64,000 nucleotides of DNA, from positions 620,001 to 684,000 of the forward strand of contig NZ_JALIQS010000001.1 of assembly GCF_024704725.1 (NCBI RefSeq), given 5' to 3'. Shown here piece after piece: positions 10,409 through 19,636 of the stretch (positions are counted from its first letter, which is position 1; each line of letters starts with the position of its first letter). Under the pieces are notes generated by a model that saw only the letters and a list, made by a program, of their open reading frames with translations, was not told the origin of the DNA and ran no database searches. Source of the DNA: Shinella sp. CPCC 101442 (lineage in GTDB: Bacteria > Pseudomonadota > Alphaproteobacteria > Rhizobiales > Rhizobiaceae). The translations under genes and the position numbers were made by a program.

Positions 10409-10412
<4 letters not shown>
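9252..10412 (+). CDS. M20 family metallohydrolase, ArgE/acetylornithine deacetylase-like
   Basis: A 386-residue zinc deacylase of the ArgE/DapE type. His71 and Asp73 lie in GHTDVVP, the bridging Asp104 in GRGAADMKG, and the general base/ligand pair Glu135-Glu136 in SYDEEIG. The lid/dimerisation domain follows (GKLALRACCHGQEGHSA) and the C-terminal metal histidine is in DQGHKPDEF. ATG 9252 has a purine-rich GGACGGG close upstream; ATG 9240 is an in-frame alternative with no visible ribosome site. It likely removes an acyl group from an amine or amino-acid intermediate of this operon. It converges with the ATPase gene on the other strand, overlapping it by four bases. Confidence 0.9.
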
Positions 10413-12081
<1,669 letters not shown>

Positions 12082-12085
<4 letters not shown>

Positions 12086-13026
12086 GCGAAGACGATCCTC
12101 GGGAAGTAGAAGGAGACAACCCAGTTCGGCATGTCGACGATCTCGCTGATCCGAAGATCGCCACAGACCGAGCAGAGCATGTAGGCATCGACGGGGCTGT
12201 AGCCGTGCTCGGCAACCAGAAGGTCGATCATGCGCATCAATGCTTCCCGAGCGCCCGTCATCAGGTCCGGACCGATACCGGTCGTCACCTCGTAGCCGGC
12301 GCCGTCGAGATGGCGTGTCACCGGCTCGGTCGTGGTGAAGCGTGGTGTCTGGAGATTGGCGCCCTTCACGAGGTCGAGGGTCAGCTCGACATTCATCTGG
12401 CTTTCGATGGCCGTGCCGCAGACCTCGCCGTCGCCCTGCGCGGCATGGGTATCGCCGACGGAAAATAGCGCGCCCTCCACCTCGATCGGCAGATAGAGCG
12501 TGACACCGGCCGTCAGGTCGCGGATGTCCAAGTTGCCGCCGACGCGGCGCGGCGGCACGACGGAATGCAGGCCGGGTTCGGCGGGTGCGACACCGATCGT
12601 GCCCGTAAAGGGTTTCAGCGGAACGCGGCCGCCGGGGCCGAAGGCCGAAGGCGCCATGGATGCCGTGTCATAGGACCAGATGTGCAGTGCCGGGTCCTTG
12701 AACTGATCGGCGAGCAGGCCGAAGCCGGGAATATTAGCCGTCCAGCCGTGGCCGGAGGGGTGGAACTTGCGGATCGTCACCTTCAGCGCATCGCCGGGTT
12801 CGGCACCCTCGACATAGACAGGGCCGGAGACCGGGTTCACCTTGCCGAAATCGAGCGCCGCCAGCGTTTCCAGCGTCGCATCCCTGCCAAGCTGGCCGCC
12901 GGAGGAATCCAGGCATTCGAAGAGGATGGTCTCGCCGGGCCGGGCGGTCAGCGCCGGCGGAAAATCGCGGTTCCAGCCGAAATTATGCTGCGCGCGGTGG
13001 ATGGTGTGGGTGCAGGCGACGCACAT
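12082..13026 (-). CDS. Formamidase/acetamidase family amidohydrolase (FmdA/AmdA)
   Basis: A 314-residue member of the FmdA/AmdA family, which hydrolyses formamide, acetamide or similar short amides to the acid and ammonia. Visible family markers are the N-terminal HTIHRAQHNFGWNRDFPP segment, the GPVYVEGAEPGDALKVTI strand and GDTHAAQGDGEVCGTAIES with its conserved histidine and acidic residues. Near the C-terminus is DAYMLCSVCGDLRISEIVD. It sits between the binding protein and the ATPase of an AmiC/AmiR-controlled operon, so it probably degrades the imported or sensed amide. Confidence 0.9.
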
Positions 13027-13099: not shown

Positions 13100-14716
13100 T
13101 CAGGGCTTCACGAAGATCGCGTCGTAATTGATGACGCGCGTCGGATCGATGTAGATGTTGTCAGGCCCGCCCATGCGCAGGGACTTCGCGACGACGCGGC
13201 GCTCGTTGATGACGGGCACCCAGGGCGCATCCGCCATGACATCCGTGAAGATCTTGCTCCAGGCCGCCTGGCGCTCCGCCGCCTTGGCCGGATCGGACAT
13301 GGCATCCGCCTCGCCGGCACGCTTGTCGATCGCCTCGTTGCAATACCATGGCCAGTTCCAGCCGCCCGCGACAGCGCCGGAGCAGCCGAGGATCGGGCCG
13401 TAGAAGTTCGACGGATCCGGGAAGTCGGCGATCCAGCCCATGCCGCCGGACCAGATCATCGGCGCTTCGCCTTCCGTGCCGCCCGCGGCGATCACATTGC
13501 CCTGCGCCAGCGCCCGCACCTCGGCCTTGATGCCGATGGCGGCGAGATCCTGCTGGATCGCCTGGGCGATGCGCGGCTGCGGATCGGTGTTGGTCGAATA
13601 GAGCACCGTTTCGAAACCATCGGGGTGGCCGGCCTCGGCGAGCAGCGCCTTTGCCTTCTCCACGTCATAGGCATAGCCGGTGAAGGTCTTGTCATAGCCG
13701 GGCATCAGCGGCGGCAGGATCTGGTTTGCGGCGGTTGCGCGACCGTTCAGGAGGCGCGTGATGCGCTCCTTGTTGATCGCCATGTTGACGGCCTGGCGCA
13801 CCTTCACGTCGTCGAAGGGTTTCACCTTGGTGTTAAGCGTGATGTAGCCGGTATGCAGCTGCTCGCCATCGACGATCATCGCCGCCCCCTCGGGCGAGTT
13901 CTTGATCTCCAGGAACTTTGCCGGCGGAATGCCGTCGCCGGCAATGTCCACTTCGCCCTTCTGCAGGCGCAGGAGCGCCACGAGCGGCTCCTGGCCGACC
14001 TCGATCGTCACCTTGTCGACATGCGGCACGTCTTTCACGAAATAGTCGGGGTTGCGTTCGAAGACGAGCTTCTGGCCGATCGTCCAGTCCTTGAGGACCA
14101 GAGAACCGGAACCGACCGGCTTCTTGCCGAAATCGCCGGCAGCGGCTTCCACGGCTTCCTTCGGCACGACGGAGGCGAAGTTGATCGCCATGACATGCAG
14201 GAAGGTCGCATCCGGCCGCGAGAGGTGGAAGACGACGGTCTGGTCGTCGGGCGTCTCGATACCCGAGAGCAGTTCCGACTTGCCGCCCGTCAGGTCGTCA
14301 AAGCCCTTGATGGCGCCGAAGAAGCCGGCGCCCGGGCCTTGGGTCTTCGGATTGATGGCGCGTTCGATGGAGTATTTCACGTCACCGGCGACGATTTCAC
14401 GGCCATTGGTGAACTTAACGCCCTTGCGCAGCTTGAACGTATAGGTGAGGCCGTCAGGCGCGACCTCGAAACTCTCGGCGAGCGAAGGGACGAGGTTGGC
14501 GGTGCCCGGCTCGTAATCCATCAGGCGCGAGAACAGGCTCTTGATCATCGACCAGTTGACCCAGTCGTAGCCGATATGCGGGTCGAGCGTGGTGATGTCG
14601 TCCTTGTAGGTGACGACGATCTCGCCGCCCTGCGCCGGCGTTTCGGCATGCGCAAGGAGTGGAGAGAAGGCGAGCACGGCCGCCGTGGTTGTTGTCAAAA
14701 TCCAGCGATTGAACAT
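13100..14716 (-). CDS. Periplasmic binding protein, DppA/OppA family
   Basis: A 538-residue family 5 extracellular binding protein. A Sec signal peptide covers about the first 24 residues (hydrophobic core TTTAAVLAFSPLLAHA, cleavage after AHA). The mature protein starts with the usual GGEIVVTYKDDITTLDPHIG and contains the family's LRKGVKFTNGREIVAGDV segment. It delivers its ligand to the 14738-16506 permeases. With AmiC/AmiR and a formamidase in the same operon, the cargo may be an amide or amidated peptide rather than a plain dipeptide (inference). Confidence 0.92.
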   Translation of the reverse strand: MFNRWILTTTTAAVLAFSPLLAHAETPAQGGEIVVTYKDDITTLDPHIGYDWVNWSMIKSLFSRLMDYEPGTANLVPSLAESFEVAPDGLTYTFKLRKGVKFTNGREIVAGDVKYSIERAINPKTQGPGAGFFGAIKGFDDLTGGKSELLSGIETPDDQTVVFHLSRPDATFLHVMAINFASVVPKEAVEAAAGDFGKKPVGSGSLVLKDWTIGQKLVFERNPDYFVKDVPHVDKVTIEVGQEPLVALLRLQKGEVDIAGDGIPPAKFLEIKNSPEGAAMIVDGEQLHTGYITLNTKVKPFDDVKVRQAVNMAINKERITRLLNGRATAANQILPPLMPGYDKTFTGYAYDVEKAKALLAEAGHPDGFETVLYSTNTDPQPRIAQAIQQDLAAIGIKAEVRALAQGNVIAAGGTEGEAPMIWSGGMGWIADFPDPSNFYGPILGCSGAVAGGWNWPWYCNEAIDKRAGEADAMSDPAKAAERQAAWSKIFTDVMADAPWVPVINERRVVAKSLRMGGPDNIYIDPTRVINYDAIFVKP

Positions 14717-14737: not shown

Positions 14738-15658
14738 TCAATGCGAACGGATGCGTGGATCGATCATCGGCGCGATGAGGTCGGCGACGAGGTTGCCGAC
14801 GATGATGGCGAAGGCGGAGGTGAGCGTGACGCCCATGATGATGGGAATATCGACCTGCTGGATCGCCTGCCAGGCAAGCTGCCCGATGCCCGGCCAGCCA
14901 TAAACCGCCTCGACCACGACGACACCGCCCATGAACTGGCCGATGTCGATACCGATCATCGCGACGATGGGCAGGATGGCGTTGGGAAGCGCATGGCGCA
15001 GCACGACGCGGCGGCCGGAAAGGCCCTTGGCACGGGCGGTGCGGATGAAATCCTGGTTGAGGACGTCGATCATCGCCGAGCGCGCCATGCGCGCATACCA
15101 GCCGGCGCCGAGAATGCCGAGCGTCATGGCGGGCAGCACGACATGGGCCAATGTCCCGTAGCCGCTCATCGGGAACCAGCCGAGCGTCGCGGCGAAGACG
15201 TAGAGCAGCAGGAGGGCGACGACGAATTGCGGGGCGGAGACACCGACGAAGGCGGAGGCCATGACGATGCGGTCGATGGCGCCGCCACGATTCAGCGCCG
15301 CGACGATCCCGAAGGTGAGACCGAACAGCACCTCGACGAAGATACCGGCCGCCATCAGCGTCAGCGTCGCCGGCAGGCGGGCCATGATGAGTGTCGCGAC
15401 CTCGGTCTTCTGCGCATAGGAACGGCCGAGATCGCCCTGAACGAGATTGCCGAGATAGTGCAGGAACTGGGTCAGCAACGGCTGGTCGAGGCCGAGTTCG
15501 CGGCGGATGTTCTCCACCGTCTGGGCCGTCGCGCTACGGCCGGCGAGCATGCGCGCGGGATCGGCCGGCAGCGCATAAAGCAGTATGAAGGTGATGGCCG
15601 CAACGCCGAGCAGGATGAGACAGGACTGGACGAGACGTTTTGCGAGCAGCATTGCCAT
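14738..15658 (-). CDS. Dipeptide-type ABC permease, DppB family
   Basis: A 306-residue inner-membrane permease with an N-terminal anchor (SCLILLGVAAITFILLY) and five further membrane segments. The DppB coupling loop is near residues 200-225 (FIRTARAKGLSGRRVVLRHAL). It overlaps the DppC-type gene by one base (TGATG). It is part of the amide operon transporter. Confidence 0.93.
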   Translation of the reverse strand: MAMLLAKRLVQSCLILLGVAAITFILLYALPADPARMLAGRSATAQTVENIRRELGLDQPLLTQFLHYLGNLVQGDLGRSYAQKTEVATLIMARLPATLTLMAAGIFVEVLFGLTFGIVAALNRGGAIDRIVMASAFVGVSAPQFVVALLLLYVFAATLGWFPMSGYGTLAHVVLPAMTLGILGAGWYARMARSAMIDVLNQDFIRTARAKGLSGRRVVLRHALPNAILPIVAMIGIDIGQFMGGVVVVEAVYGWPGIGQLAWQAIQQVDIPIIMGVTLTSAFAIIVGNLVADLIAPMIDPRIRSH

Positions 15659-16506
15659 CAGCCGCGACCCCGCTGGGTGGGGTCGAGGATGTCGCGCAAC
15701 GCGTCGCCGACGAGATTGAAGGCGAGCGCCGTGAGCAGGATCACCGCACCGGGGAAGAAGACGAGCCAGGGGGCGGCCTGGAAATAGCTCTGGCTCTCGA
15801 AGATGATGTTGCCCCAGGAGGGCTGTGGCGGCTGCACGCCGATGCCGAGGAAGGAAAGGGTCGCTTCGAGCAGCACGGTCGTCGCAATGCCGAGCGTGCC
15901 CCAGACGATGGCGGTCGGCACGAGATGCGGCAGGATATGCAAAAGCACGATGCGGGCGTTGCCGGCACCGAGCGCCCGCTCGGCCATGATGAAATCCCGC
16001 TCCACCAGTCCGCGCGTCTCCGTGTAGACGATGCGCGCCACCTGCACCCAGTTGACGAGCGCGATCACCATGGCGACGATCCAGAGGCTGGGCTTGAGGA
16101 TGGCGGCGAGCACGATGGCCAGCAGCAGCGCAGGAAAGGCCATCATCAGGTCGGTGAAGCGCATCAGCAGGCCGCCGACCCAGCCGCGCATGTAACCGGC
16201 CGTCACACCGACGAAGAGGCCGATCGTAACGGCGATGCCGTTGGCGACGAGGCCGATGATCAGCGAGGTGCGCGCGCCGTAGAGCAGGCGCGAGAGCAGG
16301 TCCCGGCCAAGCGTATCCGTGCCGAGCATGAACTGTTCACCCGGCGGGATGGGCGCACCCTCCAGCGTCAGGCCGTCGAACATCTGGTTGTCGGGCTCAT
16401 AGGGCGCAAGCCAGGGTGCAGCGATGGCCGCGAAGACCACGGCAAGGACGATGACGAGACCGAAGACCGCGGCGGGCTGGCGGCACAATTCCTTCAGGAC
16501 CCGCAT
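15658..16506 (-). CDS. Dipeptide-type ABC permease, DppC family
   Basis: A 282-residue permease with the N-terminal membrane anchor (VFGLVIVLAVVFAAIAAPWLAP, about residues 17-38). The periplasmic segment with LGTDTLGRDLLSRLLYGART follows, then the coupling loop RDFIMAERALGAGNARIVLL. ATG 16506 overlaps the AmiR stop (TGATG); a TTG one codon earlier is the only alternative. It pairs with the DppB-type product. Confidence 0.93.
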   Translation of the reverse strand: MRVLKELCRQPAAVFGLVIVLAVVFAAIAAPWLAPYEPDNQMFDGLTLEGAPIPPGEQFMLGTDTLGRDLLSRLLYGARTSLIIGLVANGIAVTIGLFVGVTAGYMRGWVGGLLMRFTDLMMAFPALLLAIVLAAILKPSLWIVAMVIALVNWVQVARIVYTETRGLVERDFIMAERALGAGNARIVLLHILPHLVPTAIVWGTLGIATTVLLEATLSFLGIGVQPPQPSWGNIIFESQSYFQAAPWLVFFPGAVILLTALAFNLVGDALRDILDPTQRGRG

Positions 16507-17090
16507 CAACCGACCTCGCGCAGGGTTTCGGAACCGCCGAGGAAAAAGGCGGCAAGCTGTTCGATGGGCATGCGGCGGCGCATGGCGCAGTCGCGCAGGA
16601 TCGCATAGGCGCGCTCCTCGTCGACATGTCGTTCGCCCGCGAGCCGTGCGACGGCGGCAAAGACGATCGGCCGCAGTTTCAGCCGCTCCTCGAGATGGGC
16701 GATGCGGCGGCGCGCTTCCACGCGCTCCGCATGAACGGATGCGGCGAGCACCAGCGCGGGATAGACGGCGGAGGCGGCAACCGGCTTCGGAATGATCGCA
16801 CCGGCGCCGTGGCGCAGCGCGAAGGCGATGCGACCCGGCGCTTCCGAACCGAGCAGCGCCACGACCGGGCAGGCCGGCGCAATATCGGAGATGGGCAACA
16901 GCTCGTCCCAGCCACGGTCGGCGTCGATGAGCACGAGATCAGGCAGGTCGGCGACGGCGAGCGGCGTCCACTGAAGGGAAGCCGAAATGCCGAGCAGGCC
17001 GAACTGGCGGCGCAGGCGATCCGTATTGCCATCCTCCTCGCTGAGGATGACGGCACGCCAGCCGGTGAAATTCGGCGTCCTCGTCGTCAT
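16506..17090 (-). CDS. amiR: AmiR-like ANTAR-domain antitermination regulator
   Basis: A 194-residue protein with an N-terminal pseudo-receiver fold (about 12-120, VLIDADRGWDELL at the place of the phospho-acceptor strand) and a coiled-coil helix. The C-terminal ANTAR domain spans about 135-185 (LEERLKLRPIVFAAVARLAG, then RAYAILRDCAMRRRMPIEQL). AmiR of Pseudomonas is an RNA-binding antiterminator held inactive by AmiC. The same gene pair here, and the strong terminator before amiC, support that role. It overlaps amiC by four bases. Confidence 0.88.
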   Translation of the reverse strand: MTTRTPNFTGWRAVILSEEDGNTDRLRRQFGLLGISASLQWTPLAVADLPDLVLIDADRGWDELLPISDIAPACPVVALLGSEAPGRIAFALRHGAGAIIPKPVAASAVYPALVLAASVHAERVEARRRIAHLEERLKLRPIVFAAVARLAGERHVDEERAYAILRDCAMRRRMPIEQLAAFFLGGSETLREVG

Positions 17091-18223
17091 GACACGACCC
17101 TCAGGCGCGGGGCGCGCTTCGTCGGAGCCCCGGTGAGGTACGGATCGGCCGCAAGTGCGGGGGCGGACGCGATGACGTCGAAACCATGCCGGTCGTTGAT
17201 GCGACCGAGCAGAAAGGGAAGCGCTGCATGGTTGGTTGCCGCGTCCACCCGCATGTCGCCGAAAAGCGACGGCCAGGCGCGGGCCAGTACCTCACCGCGC
17301 ACGCGCTCGGGCGCATCGGAACCAGCCGCCTCGATCGCCGCGATGCAAAGGCTGACGGCGGTATAGGCGCTGGCAAAGAGGCTGGAGACGATACGCTCGC
17401 CGCCGCTCCAGCCGGCAAGCCGCGCCTTGAAGGCCCGGTTGTCGGGCGTGTCCAGCGTATCGAAATAGGAAGCCGCGCAGAGCTGGCCGAGGGCCGCCCC
17501 CTCGCCGATATCCCCAAGTTCGCATTCCTGCAGATCGCAGCTGGCAACCGGGCAGTTTTCCGGCAGGAAGGCCGGGTCGCGCTCGCCGAGTTTTCGCATC
17601 GCGGCGAGGAAAGCATAACTCGACGGCCCCACGAGATTGTTCAGCACGAAGCTCGGCCGCTTCTCGGCGATATCGGCGACGATGCGTTCGACGGCGGTCT
17701 CCTCCAGCGGCAAGTAGCGTTCGCCGAGCACCGTGCCGCCGGCATTGTGGATCAGCTCGCGTGCCAGCCGGTTCATCTCCCAACCCCAGACATAGTTCGC
17801 GCCGACGAGATAGGGCCGCACGCCGTGGCGGGGCAGCAGGTAGTCGAAAAGCGGGATCAGGTGCTGGTTCGGGCAGCCGCCGATATAGATGACGTTCTCG
17901 TTCGCCTCGAACCCCTCATAGGGGCACATATACCAGAGCAGGCCGTCATGTTTTTCGACCAGCGGAATGACCTCTTTCCGCGCAGAAGACGTGATGGTGC
18001 CGACGATGTGGCGGCAGCCATGATCGCGGATGAGGCTGCGCGCGCCCTCCAGATAGGCCGAGAGATCGGCGCGCGGATCGAAAAAGACGGGCTCGATGAG
18101 CGAGCCGCCCCGCGCGCGATAATCGTGAAAGGCGAATTCGGCGCCCGCATGCGCATCCCGCCCCATCGCCCCATAGGGACCGGAGGTCGAATAGAGGATG
18201 CCGATCTTCACGCTTTCCTGCAT
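17087..18223 (-). CDS. amiC: AmiC-like amide-sensing protein (ABC binding-protein fold)
   Basis: A 378-residue cytoplasmic sensor of the AmiC/UrtA type. It has no signal peptide, which fits a negative regulator that holds AmiR until an amide binds. It starts MQESVKIGILYSTSGPYGAM and contains the family elements GTITSSARKEVIPLVEK, GANYVWGWEMNR and NLVGPSSYAFLAAMRK. I placed the start at 18223, right after the leader terminator; the frame stays open upstream but that part is not family-like. It is the first gene of the amide operon, followed by amiR with a four-base overlap. The nature of the amide is unknown. Confidence 0.87.
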   Translation of the reverse strand: MQESVKIGILYSTSGPYGAMGRDAHAGAEFAFHDYRARGGSLIEPVFFDPRADLSAYLEGARSLIRDHGCRHIVGTITSSARKEVIPLVEKHDGLLWYMCPYEGFEANENVIYIGGCPNQHLIPLFDYLLPRHGVRPYLVGANYVWGWEMNRLARELIHNAGGTVLGERYLPLEETAVERIVADIAEKRPSFVLNNLVGPSSYAFLAAMRKLGERDPAFLPENCPVASCDLQECELGDIGEGAALGQLCAASYFDTLDTPDNRAFKARLAGWSGGERIVSSLFASAYTAVSLCIAAIEAAGSDAPERVRGEVLARAWPSLFGDMRVDAATNHAALPFLLGRINDRHGFDVIASAPALAADPYLTGAPTKRAPRLRVVS

Positions 18224-18236
18224 CAGCCACCAATAC

Positions 18237-18281
18237 GAAAAGCCCACAGCGGGAAGCCCCGGAGACCGGGCCGCTGTGGGC
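18237..18281 (-). terminator. Leader terminator/attenuator upstream of amiC
   Basis: On the minus-strand RNA, GCCCACAGCGG and CCGCTGTGGGC form a perfect 11-bp stem, with an inner CCCGG-TCT-CCGGG hairpin, followed directly by TTTT at 18241-18238. It ends about 15 bases before the amiC ATG, so without antitermination the operon would be cut off before translation begins. It is the probable target of the ANTAR protein encoded two genes downstream. Confidence 0.75.
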
Positions 18282-18291
18282 GCTATTGCCC
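18278..18291 (-). promoter_or_regulatory. Candidate antiterminator hairpin overlapping the terminator arm
   Basis: On the minus-strand RNA, GGGC, a six-base loop AATAGC and GCCC form a short hairpin whose 3' arm is the first four bases of the terminator stem, so the two are mutually exclusive. ANTAR proteins bind paired hairpins with six-base loops. The loop starts with A as in that consensus, but its fourth base is A rather than G, so the match is partial. Confidence 0.4.
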
Positions 18292-18337
18292 TTCGACAAA
18301 CGAAGTCATGTGAGAACGGCGGGAGAACCGCTCCCGC
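18291..18337 (-). promoter_or_regulatory. Two further hairpins in the amiC leader
   Basis: GCGGGAG-CGGTT-CTCCCGC (18337-18319) and CTTCG-TTTGT-CGAAG (18305-18291) are perfect stems of 7 and 5 bp, each with a five-base loop, upstream of the terminator on the same RNA. They make a structured leader of about 125 bases. Loop size differs from the six-base ANTAR consensus, so their role is unproven. Confidence 0.45.
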
Positions 18338-18351
18338 TTGTTGGAAACGAT

Positions 18352-18379
18352 TGAAATACGCTCGGTTGGTCTTTGTCAA
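18352..18379 (-). promoter_or_regulatory. Probable sigma70 promoter of the amide operon
   Basis: A perfect TTGACA (18379-18374) is followed after 15-17 bases by an AT-rich TATTTCAA stretch that can serve as the -10 region. Transcription would run to a leader with three hairpins and the terminator before amiC. The -35 box lies just before the 3' end of the MerR gene, which points the same way. Confidence 0.5.
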
Positions 18380-18398
18380 GCACCCCGGCCGGATGCCG

Positions 18399-18803
18399 TC
18401 AGGCCTCGAAGGACTTGAGGATCGGGCATGGCCCCGTCTTTCCGACGGCACATTCGGAAACGAGTTTCTGCAACGACGCTCTGGCGCGCTGCAGCTCCTC
18501 CATGCGCGCATCGAGCTCGGCCAGACGCTTGGCCGCCATGGCGCGCGCCGCCGCGCGGTCCTCACCGGAATCGAGCGCCAGCAGCTGGCGGATTTCCTCC
18601 AGCGTGAAGCCCGCAGCCTGCGCCTGGCGGATGAAACGCAGTCGGCTGAGATCGGTATCGTCGTAGCGGCGGATACCGTCTATGCGCTTCGGCGTCGAAA
18701 GCAGGCCGCGGCGCTGGTAGAAACGCACCGTCTCGACGCCGACATCCGCCGCCGCCGCAAATTTTCCGATTGTCAGGTCTTTTGGCTGTTGACTCCGTAC
18801 CAT
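18399..18803 (-). CDS. MerR-family transcriptional regulator, thiol type
   Basis: A 134-residue MerR protein. The winged helix lies at the N-terminus (LTIGKFAAAADVGVETVRFY), then the dimerisation helix, and a C-terminal loop with Cys118 and Cys126 (ECAVGKTGPCPIL) as in mercury/thiol-sensing relatives. The third metal cysteine of MerR, near position 82, is Asp here, so classical Hg(II) three-thiolate sensing is unlikely. Its ATG lies inside the palindrome between the divergent genes, with only nine bases to a TATAGG -10-like box, which suggests a nearly leaderless mRNA. It should regulate the glutaredoxin-MauE gene and itself. Confidence 0.88.
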   Translation of the reverse strand: MVRSQQPKDLTIGKFAAAADVGVETVRFYQRRGLLSTPKRIDGIRRYDDTDLSRLRFIRQAQAAGFTLEEIRQLLALDSGEDRAAARAMAAKRLAELDARMEELQRARASLQKLVSECAVGKTGPCPILKSFEA

Positions 18804-18820
18804 GGTACGGAACCTATAGT
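18789..18820 (+). promoter_or_regulatory. MerR-type promoter with operator palindrome
   Basis: TTGACT (18789-18794) and TATAGT (18815-18820) are separated by 20 bases, the overlong spacing that MerR activators correct by twisting DNA. The spacer holds the perfect palindrome CCGTACCATGGTACGG (18795-18810). The palindrome also contains the start codon of the MerR gene on the other strand. It drives the glutaredoxin-MauE gene 34 bases downstream. Confidence 0.8.
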
Positions 18821-18853
18821 CCTGCCAACGATTTCACAAGACAGGAGAGTGAG

Positions 18854-19636
18854 ATGTTGGATAGCAACAATCTGAATACGAAGAAGGCCGTTCTCTACCG
18901 CATGGTGATGGAGAGCCACACCTGCCCTTACGGCCTGAAGGCCAAGGATCTGCTAAAGCGCTCGGGCTATGAGATCGAGGATCGCCACCTGACGACCCGC
19001 GAAGCCACCGACACCTTCAAGGCGGAGCATGATGTCGCCACCACCCCGCAGGTCTTCATCGGCGGAACGCGTGTCGGCGGTTACGACGACCTGCGCCGCT
19101 ACCTCGGCAAGCCCGTCGCCGATCCCAAGGCGACCACCTACCGGCCGGTCATCGTGCTTTTCGCGCTGACGGCGCTGACCGCGATGGCCGCAAGCTACGC
19201 CGTCAGCGGTTCGCCCTTCACGCTGCGCGCAGCCGAATGGTTCATCGCCTTCTCGATGGTGGTTCTGGCGATGCTCAAGCTGCAGAATGTCGAAGCCTTC
19301 GCCACGATGTTCCTCAACTATGACCTGCTCGCCAAGCGCTGGGTGCCCTACAGCTACATCTACCCCTATGCGGAGGGCCTGGCCGGCGTGCTGATGGTGG
19401 CGGGCGCGCTGACCTGGCTGTCCGTCCCGATCGCGCTCTTCATCGGCACGATCGGCGCGGCCTCGGTGTTCAAGGCCGTCTATATCGACAGGCGCGAACT
19501 GAAATGCGCCTGCGTCGGCGGTGCGAGCAACGTTCCTCTCGGCTTCATCTCGCTGACCGAGAACCTGATGATGATCGCCATGGCGCTCTGGATGGCAGCC
19601 GCTTCGCTCGGCTATATCGCCGCCCACACCATGTAA
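18854..19636 (+). CDS. Glutaredoxin-MauE/DoxX-like membrane fusion protein
   Basis: 260 residues in two parts. Residues ~10-90 are a glutaredoxin domain with CPYG at the active site and the TTPQVFIGGTRVGGYDDL motif that binds glutathione. Residues ~100-260 carry about four membrane helices of the MauE/DoxX redox-membrane type, with a cysteine pair in ELKCACVGGASNVPLG. The protein may pass reducing equivalents from the glutathione system to a membrane or periplasmic thiol. ATG 18854 has AGGAGAG upstream. Divergence from a thiol MerR regulator suggests control by a metal or thiol stress. A terminator follows, so it is monocistronic. Confidence 0.85.
   Translation: MLDSNNLNTKKAVLYRMVMESHTCPYGLKAKDLLKRSGYEIEDRHLTTREATDTFKAEHDVATTPQVFIGGTRVGGYDDLRRYLGKPVADPKATTYRPVIVLFALTALTAMAASYAVSGSPFTLRAAEWFIAFSMVVLAMLKLQNVEAFATMFLNYDLLAKRWVPYSYIYPYAEGLAGVLMVAGALTWLSVPIALFIGTIGAASVFKAVYIDRRELKCACVGGASNVPLGFISLTENLMMIAMALWMAAASLGYIAAHTM

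Follow-up and report, generated by a model that had tools for sequence, protein, structure and literature searches.

A probable AmiR-antiterminated leader with an off-consensus ANTAR loop ahead of the amiC operon in Shinella and its relatives

The operon that opens with amiC in the window (the whole 64,000-nucleotide stretch of the Shinella sp. CPCC 101442 genome analysed here, with positions counted from its first letter) is probably controlled by AmiR-driven antitermination, through a leader RNA that is read by an off-consensus loop code. The operon comprises amiC, amiR, opp-type transporter genes and an amidase gene, and the circuit would be autogenous because amiC and amiR themselves lie in the controlled operon. 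The evidence consists of the anatomy of the leader, its conservation and covariation among relatives, its genomic linkage to AmiR, and a parallel change in the RNA loop and in the protein. An earlier note on this DNA had proposed an autogenous, ANTAR-antiterminated leader, and at the level of sequence this proposal is supported by leader conservation, by covariation and by the linkage to one clade of AmiR proteins.

All features of the operon and leader lie on the minus strand. The first gene, amiC (17087–18223), encodes an AmiC-like amide receptor (Peripla_BP_5) with no signal-peptide-like start on inspection and 96% identity to the AmiC of Shinella curvata. The second, amiR (16506–17090), encodes an AmiR-like protein with a receiver-like and an ANTAR domain and with valine at the position of EutV Lys149 (PF03861, alignment and structure model). 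The two genes stand directly downstream of the leader, as the earlier note had said, and an AmiC-type receptor adjoining an AmiR-type receiver–ANTAR protein identifies them as an AmiC–AmiR pair. Domain searches placed behind them an oppC-type permease (15658–16509), an oppB-type permease (14738–15658), a family-5 extracellular solute-binding protein (13100–14716), an acetamidase/formamidase family enzyme (12082–13026; PF03069, 217.7 bits) and a two-domain ABC ATPase of the OppDF type (10409–12085). For comparison, the loci of the best 80 of 155 amiC relatives were fetched with their flanks (upstream 3 kb or less); amiR, oppC and oppB follow amiC in all of these 80 and the family-5 binding protein in 78. 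On the other side of the leader, positions 18399–19636 of the window hold a MerR-like regulator, and the gene divergent from it has glutaredoxin and MauE domains.

Three short hairpins (P0, P1 and P2) and a terminator lie between the promoter and amiC. The TTGACA promoter that had been noticed ahead of amiC is present, with its −35 element at 18374–18379 and, after an 18-nt spacer, a −10-like TTCAAT (18350–18355), and the leader transcript would start near 18343. P0, proximal to this start site, reads GCGGGAG-CGGTT-CTCCCGC (18319–18337), and P1 reads GAC-UUCGUUU-GUC (18295–18307), with CUUCG-UUUGU-CGAAG (18291–18305) as an alternative pairing of the same region. The two perfect hairpins described in the earlier note therefore both exist in the sequence, but the sequence of the first (18319–18337) is not conserved outside Shinella on inspection of the relatives' leaders, and for the second the pairing GAC-UUCGUUU-GUC given above is the form common to most relatives. 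P2, GGGC-AAUAGC-GCCC (18278–18291), is the predicted antiterminator mini-hairpin; as had been suggested from its shared arm, its GCCC is also part of the 5′ arm of the terminator stem-loop (18242–18281), so that P2 and the terminator are mutually exclusive. The terminator has the 11-bp outer stem and T-run expected of it (18238–18281 in all, and kept in relatives), although the run in the window is only four U long (TTTT, 18238–18241); the amiC ATG (18223) follows 14 nt past it. A generic terminator and promoter scanner reported neither the leader terminator nor the leader promoter, because the terminator loop is longer than the 8 that the scanner allows and the A that it requires at position 2 of the −10 is missing.

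Two adjacent stem-loops of at least 3 bp, the second overlapping and excluding an intrinsic terminator, are what a canonical dual-hexaloop ANTAR target would present, and both features are found here. Because P1 has neither a six-base loop nor A1 and P2 has no G4 (loop positions are numbered from the 5′ side), we class the leader as a variant and not as an ordinary ANTAR target. Rfam returned no match at gathering score in the whole window, and a relaxed search of 18190–18400 gave five weak matches, all far under their gathering scores.

None of 200 dinucleotide shuffles folds as well as the 129-nt leader (z −3.58), and the same holds for the terminator alone (−30.5 kcal/mol, z −4.89, again ahead of 200/200). 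In a truncated P1–P2 transcript both hairpins form (−9.1 kcal/mol), in a fold that is modestly beyond chance (z −1.76, with 9 of 200 shuffles as good), and in the full leader the terminator outcompetes them (−38.1 kcal/mol). Conservation is stronger evidence for the leader than these folding statistics. A TTGAC occurs at the matching place in every one of the best 80 of 155 relatives, where the best −10 is TTTAAT or TTCAAT at a spacing of 18 in 43 and TATTTT at a spacing of 15 in 26. The earlier note had named two findings that would overturn its reading, one of them a failure of relatives with this operon to keep the hairpins; a P2 hairpin with a six-base loop was found in all 80 (with the A-starting loop chosen where several matched, which affected three loci), and the reading was not refuted on this count. 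Among 66 distinct P1–P2 rows, P2 is paired in 100% of cells; its outer pair is G-C (56), G-U (7) or A-U (3) and the other three of its four pairs are invariant, so that its covariation comes from a single pair. In the same rows 87.5% of P1 cells are paired, with changes on both sides in three of the five P1 pairs. Across 70 aligned leaders, the 19 pairs of P1 and the terminator are paired in 95.8% of cells and 11 of them have changes on both sides (117 such cells, where shuffles give 32); the outer helix of the terminator reaches 98.1% of cells, with both-side changes in 6 of 10 pairs, and the T-run stands at the matching place in these rows, interrupted in one (L016). The covariation that the earlier note had called for is thus seen in P1 and the terminator, and in P2 through the single pair. 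As a separate observation, many Rhizobium leaders (many of L023–L083) carry a GCCU-GCGGAUU-AGGC-like hairpin shortly after the −10, which Shinella does not have.

To trace the leader across the family, its covariance model was searched against 297 family genomes with strict filters. Matches at E < 1e-6 occurred in 25 genomes, one copy each and upstream of amiC, and these are exactly the genomes whose AmiR match falls below E 1e-60; the other 272 have none. In the 25, the amiR match lies about 1.2 kb from the leader match on the same strand. Some of these genomes correspond to loci used in building the model, so that recovery of those loci is partly by construction; absence of the leader elsewhere and its single copy are not. 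The window genome itself has only one match, so that no wider regulon of this leader type is seen in it. Weak matches arose in seven further genomes (E 1.7e-5 to 0.042), of which two (G057 and G161) are homologous leaders of more distant AmiC–AmiR pairs. Four others (G070, G203, G265 and G131) score 21–33 bits, against 39–90 for the 25; the match in G070 looks spurious, having no P2 loop and lying between two converging frames, as does that in G203, which sits inside a reading frame.

The loop of P2 departs from the six-base ANTAR consensus throughout the clade, as the earlier note had noticed in the single sequence. In the window it reads AAUAGC, with A1, A4 and G5. In the best 80 of 155 relatives, A1 is present in all, position 2 is A or G, position 3 is U or C and position 4 is U in 47 and A in 33, and thus never G. 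More distant AmiC–AmiR pairs were collected by searches of the family, class and phylum, and in a tree of their AmiR proteins the window clade comprises 67 sampled tips, 52 of them distant (support 0.93). On these distant leaders an automatic P2 search by folding energy gave noisy results, and it was replaced by a pattern, [AG]GC-N6-GC[CT] at the 5′ edge of the terminator, which demands neither A1 nor G4. The same GGC-A(N5)-GCC hairpin was found there in 48 of the 52 distant leaders, with A1 in 48 of 48 loops, G4 in a single one (L115) and a purine at position 5 in 47 (G in 38). The neutral pattern finds no P2 in the remaining four (L163, L170, L117 and L162); in a listing of hairpins with A1 demanded, which includes L163 and L170 but not L117 or L162, the first two show an A1, non-G4 hairpin. 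A purine at position 5 is not a rule for the whole clade: it fails in much of Rhizobium, given that 58 of the best 80 of 155 loops have U there.

P1 likewise lacks the canonical loop. With three pairs, it was found in 75 of the best 80 of 155 relatives and not in the other five, and its loop has seven bases in 60 of the 75, six in 13 and eight in 2 (the extraction favoured seven). The 23 unique seven-base loops start with U, G or C, and so have no A1; a G at position 4 is common in them, which is only suggestive given that the extraction preferred seven bases and that the rows are related. The best P1 hairpin was never an A1..G4 hexaloop, either in the 80 close leaders or among the 47 of 50 distant leaders that yielded a hairpin. 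A wider check for A1..G4 hexaloop hairpins anywhere in the leaders, with a stem of at least four pairs, found them in 1 of the best 80 of 155 close leaders, against 2.8 expected from shuffles, and in 5 of the 52 distant clade leaders, against 4.5; the window leader has none even at three pairs. The same check recovered such hairpins in 10 of 16 leaders of a sister clade (RRK), against 1.7 expected.

The change in the loop is accompanied by changes in the protein. The ANTAR domain of the window AmiR scores 40.8 bits (PF03861, cut-off 27.3), its AmiR_N match stands just under the cut-off (26.0 bits against 27), and its structure model (mean pLDDT 88.9) best matches Pseudomonas aeruginosa AmiR (1qo0, the top match) and RNA-bound EutV. 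In the EutV–RNA structure, as described in PMC8934654, G4 is held by stacking on Tyr164 and by bonds to Arg142, Lys149 and Glu160, the loop is plugged by Met172 and A1 is uncontacted; G4 is there termed obligatory, its contact being the sole base-specific one. Aligned to 6wsh, the window AmiR (row L114) keeps the equivalents of R142, E160, Y164, R168, M172 and R175, and differs from EutV in K143→P, K147→A, K149→V, N173→R and R177→P. The Lys149 equivalent is absent from all of the best 80 of 155 close relatives and from 52 of 52 distant members, which have V, I, L, M or T instead, and NasR K347, at the 149 position as judged by its spacing from R340, is reported to matter for binding (PMC7496416). 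R168 and M172 are kept in all 132 proteins and R142 in 131 (79 of the 80 close and 52 of 52 distant). Of the 80 close relatives, 79 retain Tyr164 and all have an acid at 160, a retention that counts against the main reading; position 143 is P throughout these 80. Of the 52 distant members, 21 have replaced Tyr164 and 12 the acid at 160, and 48 have neither K nor R at 143. The variant recognition code that had been raised as a possibility is thus supported by sequence comparison, in that the deviation of the loop goes with changed RNA-contact residues.

Residue 149 does not by itself account for the loop. The RRK sister clade (16 members) has V or I at 149, yet 10 of 14 P1 loops are A1..G4 and no fewer than 6 of 16 leaders carry an A1..G4 P2 candidate, and G4 occurs together with V149 in L115 and L206; a rule that K149 predicts G4 was therefore rejected. 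A basic residue at 143 is kept in 16 of 16 RRK proteins and mostly lost in the window clade. Because the RRK clade lacks the lysine but has G4 loops, the loss of G4 goes with a combined residue change and not with 149 alone. Among 20 rows of leaders with a K149 protein (L125 and L239 being the same locus), the pattern finds P2 in five, all with G4, which is a thin set, as four are AGGGCA from one genus and the fifth (L232) has both G1 and G4. On inspection, leaders of the sister clade (L187, L191, L192, L194–L198, L207 and L216–L219) carry an A1..G4 hexaloop hairpin tens of bases upstream of P2; this distance exceeds the eut linker range of 5–12 nt and may represent a second ANTAR leader geometry.

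The window genome also encodes two further ANTAR proteins, both of which keep lysine 149. One (L159, G000:C1) is NasT-like, named by inspection of its neighbours, and belongs to a NasS–NasT-like pair beside an MFS transporter gene; the leader before the transporter gene carries GGUGUCC-AACGAC-GGGCACC, CAGC-AAAGCC-GCUG and a terminator, with canonical A1 and G4. The other (L144, G000:C16; AmiR2) is part of a second AmiC–AmiR pair beside what on inspection resembles an ABC transporter of the urea/amide type. In its leader, GGCGGC-AAGGUU-GCCGCC and, picked out by eye, a bulged GAG(C)GC-AAUGUC-GC-CUC precede a terminator, again with canonical A1 and G4.

From these observations we infer AmiR binding, an amide signal, antitermination and the loop bases that would be read. 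RNA polymerase would stop at the terminator by default, as in the established model for AmiR, NasR and EutV, in which termination is the default and the ANTAR protein antiterminates (reported in PMC3369931). An amide or similar ligand would bind AmiC and AmiR would be released; the ANTAR domain of the freed AmiR would then hold P2, which takes up the first four bases of the terminator 5′ arm, and with the terminator blocked transcription would run into amiC and the downstream genes. Recognition would be off-consensus: P2 retains the six-base loop with its A1, G4 is absent, and nearly all distant relatives have a purine at position 5, while P1 would act as a supporting hairpin without an A1..G4 hexaloop.

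This arrangement shares with the P. aeruginosa AmiC–AmiR/amiE system a co-encoded receptor and ANTAR protein and a terminator overlapped by a mini-hairpin. It differs in three respects: the Shinella leader precedes amiC itself and the transporter, unlike that of amiE; the amiE target is reported to have A1 and G4 in both loops (PMC3369931), whereas the Shinella P2 has no G4; and P. aeruginosa AmiR has K at the 149 position, where the window AmiR has V. With the EutV-controlled eutP leader of Enterococcus faecalis it has in common the P1–P2 tandem, P2 in the terminator 5′ arm and an A1 hexaloop in P2, but the Shinella leader has no G4, no A1 hexaloop in P1 and a linker of only 3 nt (0 in the alternative pairing), and the window AmiR has replaced the equivalents of Lys143, Lys147, Lys149 and Arg177. 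NasT/NasR nitrate antitermination likewise joins an ANTAR protein to a leader terminator, although the signal differs and the NasT-like leader of the same genome has the canonical AACGAC and AAAGCC loops. Actinobacterial ANTAR-target RNAs are also diverged members of the dual stem-loop family; a survey of them is reported to have required dual hexanucleotide loops with one point variation allowed, and to have found few beside terminators (PMC8164766).

It is unlikely, but the strongest of the alternatives, that the leader is a classical ANTAR target which AmiR reads canonically, with only the fold and A1 mattering and the loop differences neutral. A single hexaloop is reported to be the minimal binding motif (Walshe et al., PMC8934654), the residues that touch or place the loop, M172 and R168, never vary in the clade, and position 4 of P2 is freely U, C or A, all of which would fit. 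However, in the eut system a G56A change in P2, the native state in the Shinella leader, is reported to reduce induction by EutV, and a 3-nt linker to cut it drastically (PMC3369931), so that either the window AmiR reads the loop differently or the leader would work poorly; selection with NasR is reported to favour A1 and G4 (PMC7496416); and position 5 is a purine in 47 of 48 distant loops, so that the loop is not free.

Other explanations would remove AmiR from the leader altogether. That the hairpins and terminator are a constitutive attenuator, or the transcript end of the merR-like gene, with AmiR acting elsewhere or not at all, is improbable: a merR-like gene does end at 18399, on the same strand and just upstream, and intergenic terminators are common, but of the best 80 of 155 relatives only one (L004) has the merR pair within the upstream flank (3 kb or less), whereas all 80 have the TTGAC element before the terminator, and P2, for which a plain terminator has no use, is paired in each of the 66 distinct rows. 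A mere merR terminator was rejected on the first two counts. We find it scarcely credible that a leader peptide, starting at an ATG in P1, controls termination through ribosome stalling. In 67 of the best 80 of 155 relatives an ATG stands no more than 26 nt upstream of P2, and that of the window opens an 8-codon frame, as in L004, but only 1 of the 67 has a Shine–Dalgarno-like sequence, 13 of the 80 have no ATG, the peptide lengths are scattered, and the P1 loop differs by single bases between leaders, which shifts the frame. A riboswitch that senses an amide or nitrogen compound directly would suit a conserved leader ahead of a transport operon, and it deserves equally little credence, given that no Rfam family reaches threshold, that the conserved core is two mini-hairpins with no aptamer-sized fold, and that amiR follows amiC in all 80.

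Control by AmiR through an off-consensus loop would have a wider counterpart in an alphaproteobacterial AmiR clade with its own ANTAR code, for and against which the balance seems to us about even. In this clade P2 would be read as A1-N-N-H4-R5-N in place of A1-N-N-G4-N-N, with R5 lost again in part of Rhizobium, and P1 would have a seven-base loop, often with G4 and without A1; the system would be insulated from the canonical NasT and second AmiR of the same cell. The literature matches listed, which gave titles and abstract openings and mostly left subscription papers uncovered, include no description of an ANTAR clade without G4. With a natural clade that lacks the supposedly obligatory G4 and has several contact residues changed, swaps of loops and residues become a way to test the recognition code. 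Leaders of this kind may escape searches seeded with A1/G4 alignments, and the clade suggests a way in which one cell could run several ANTAR systems without cross-talk. In the receiver-like half of the window AmiR, D55 (in 'LIDADRG'), S81 and K101-P102 are invariant in 40 aligned sequences; P. aeruginosa AmiR is described as a pseudo-receiver without phosphorylation residues (PMC8934654), and, judging from these residues, the receiver-like half of the window AmiR may be phosphorylated.
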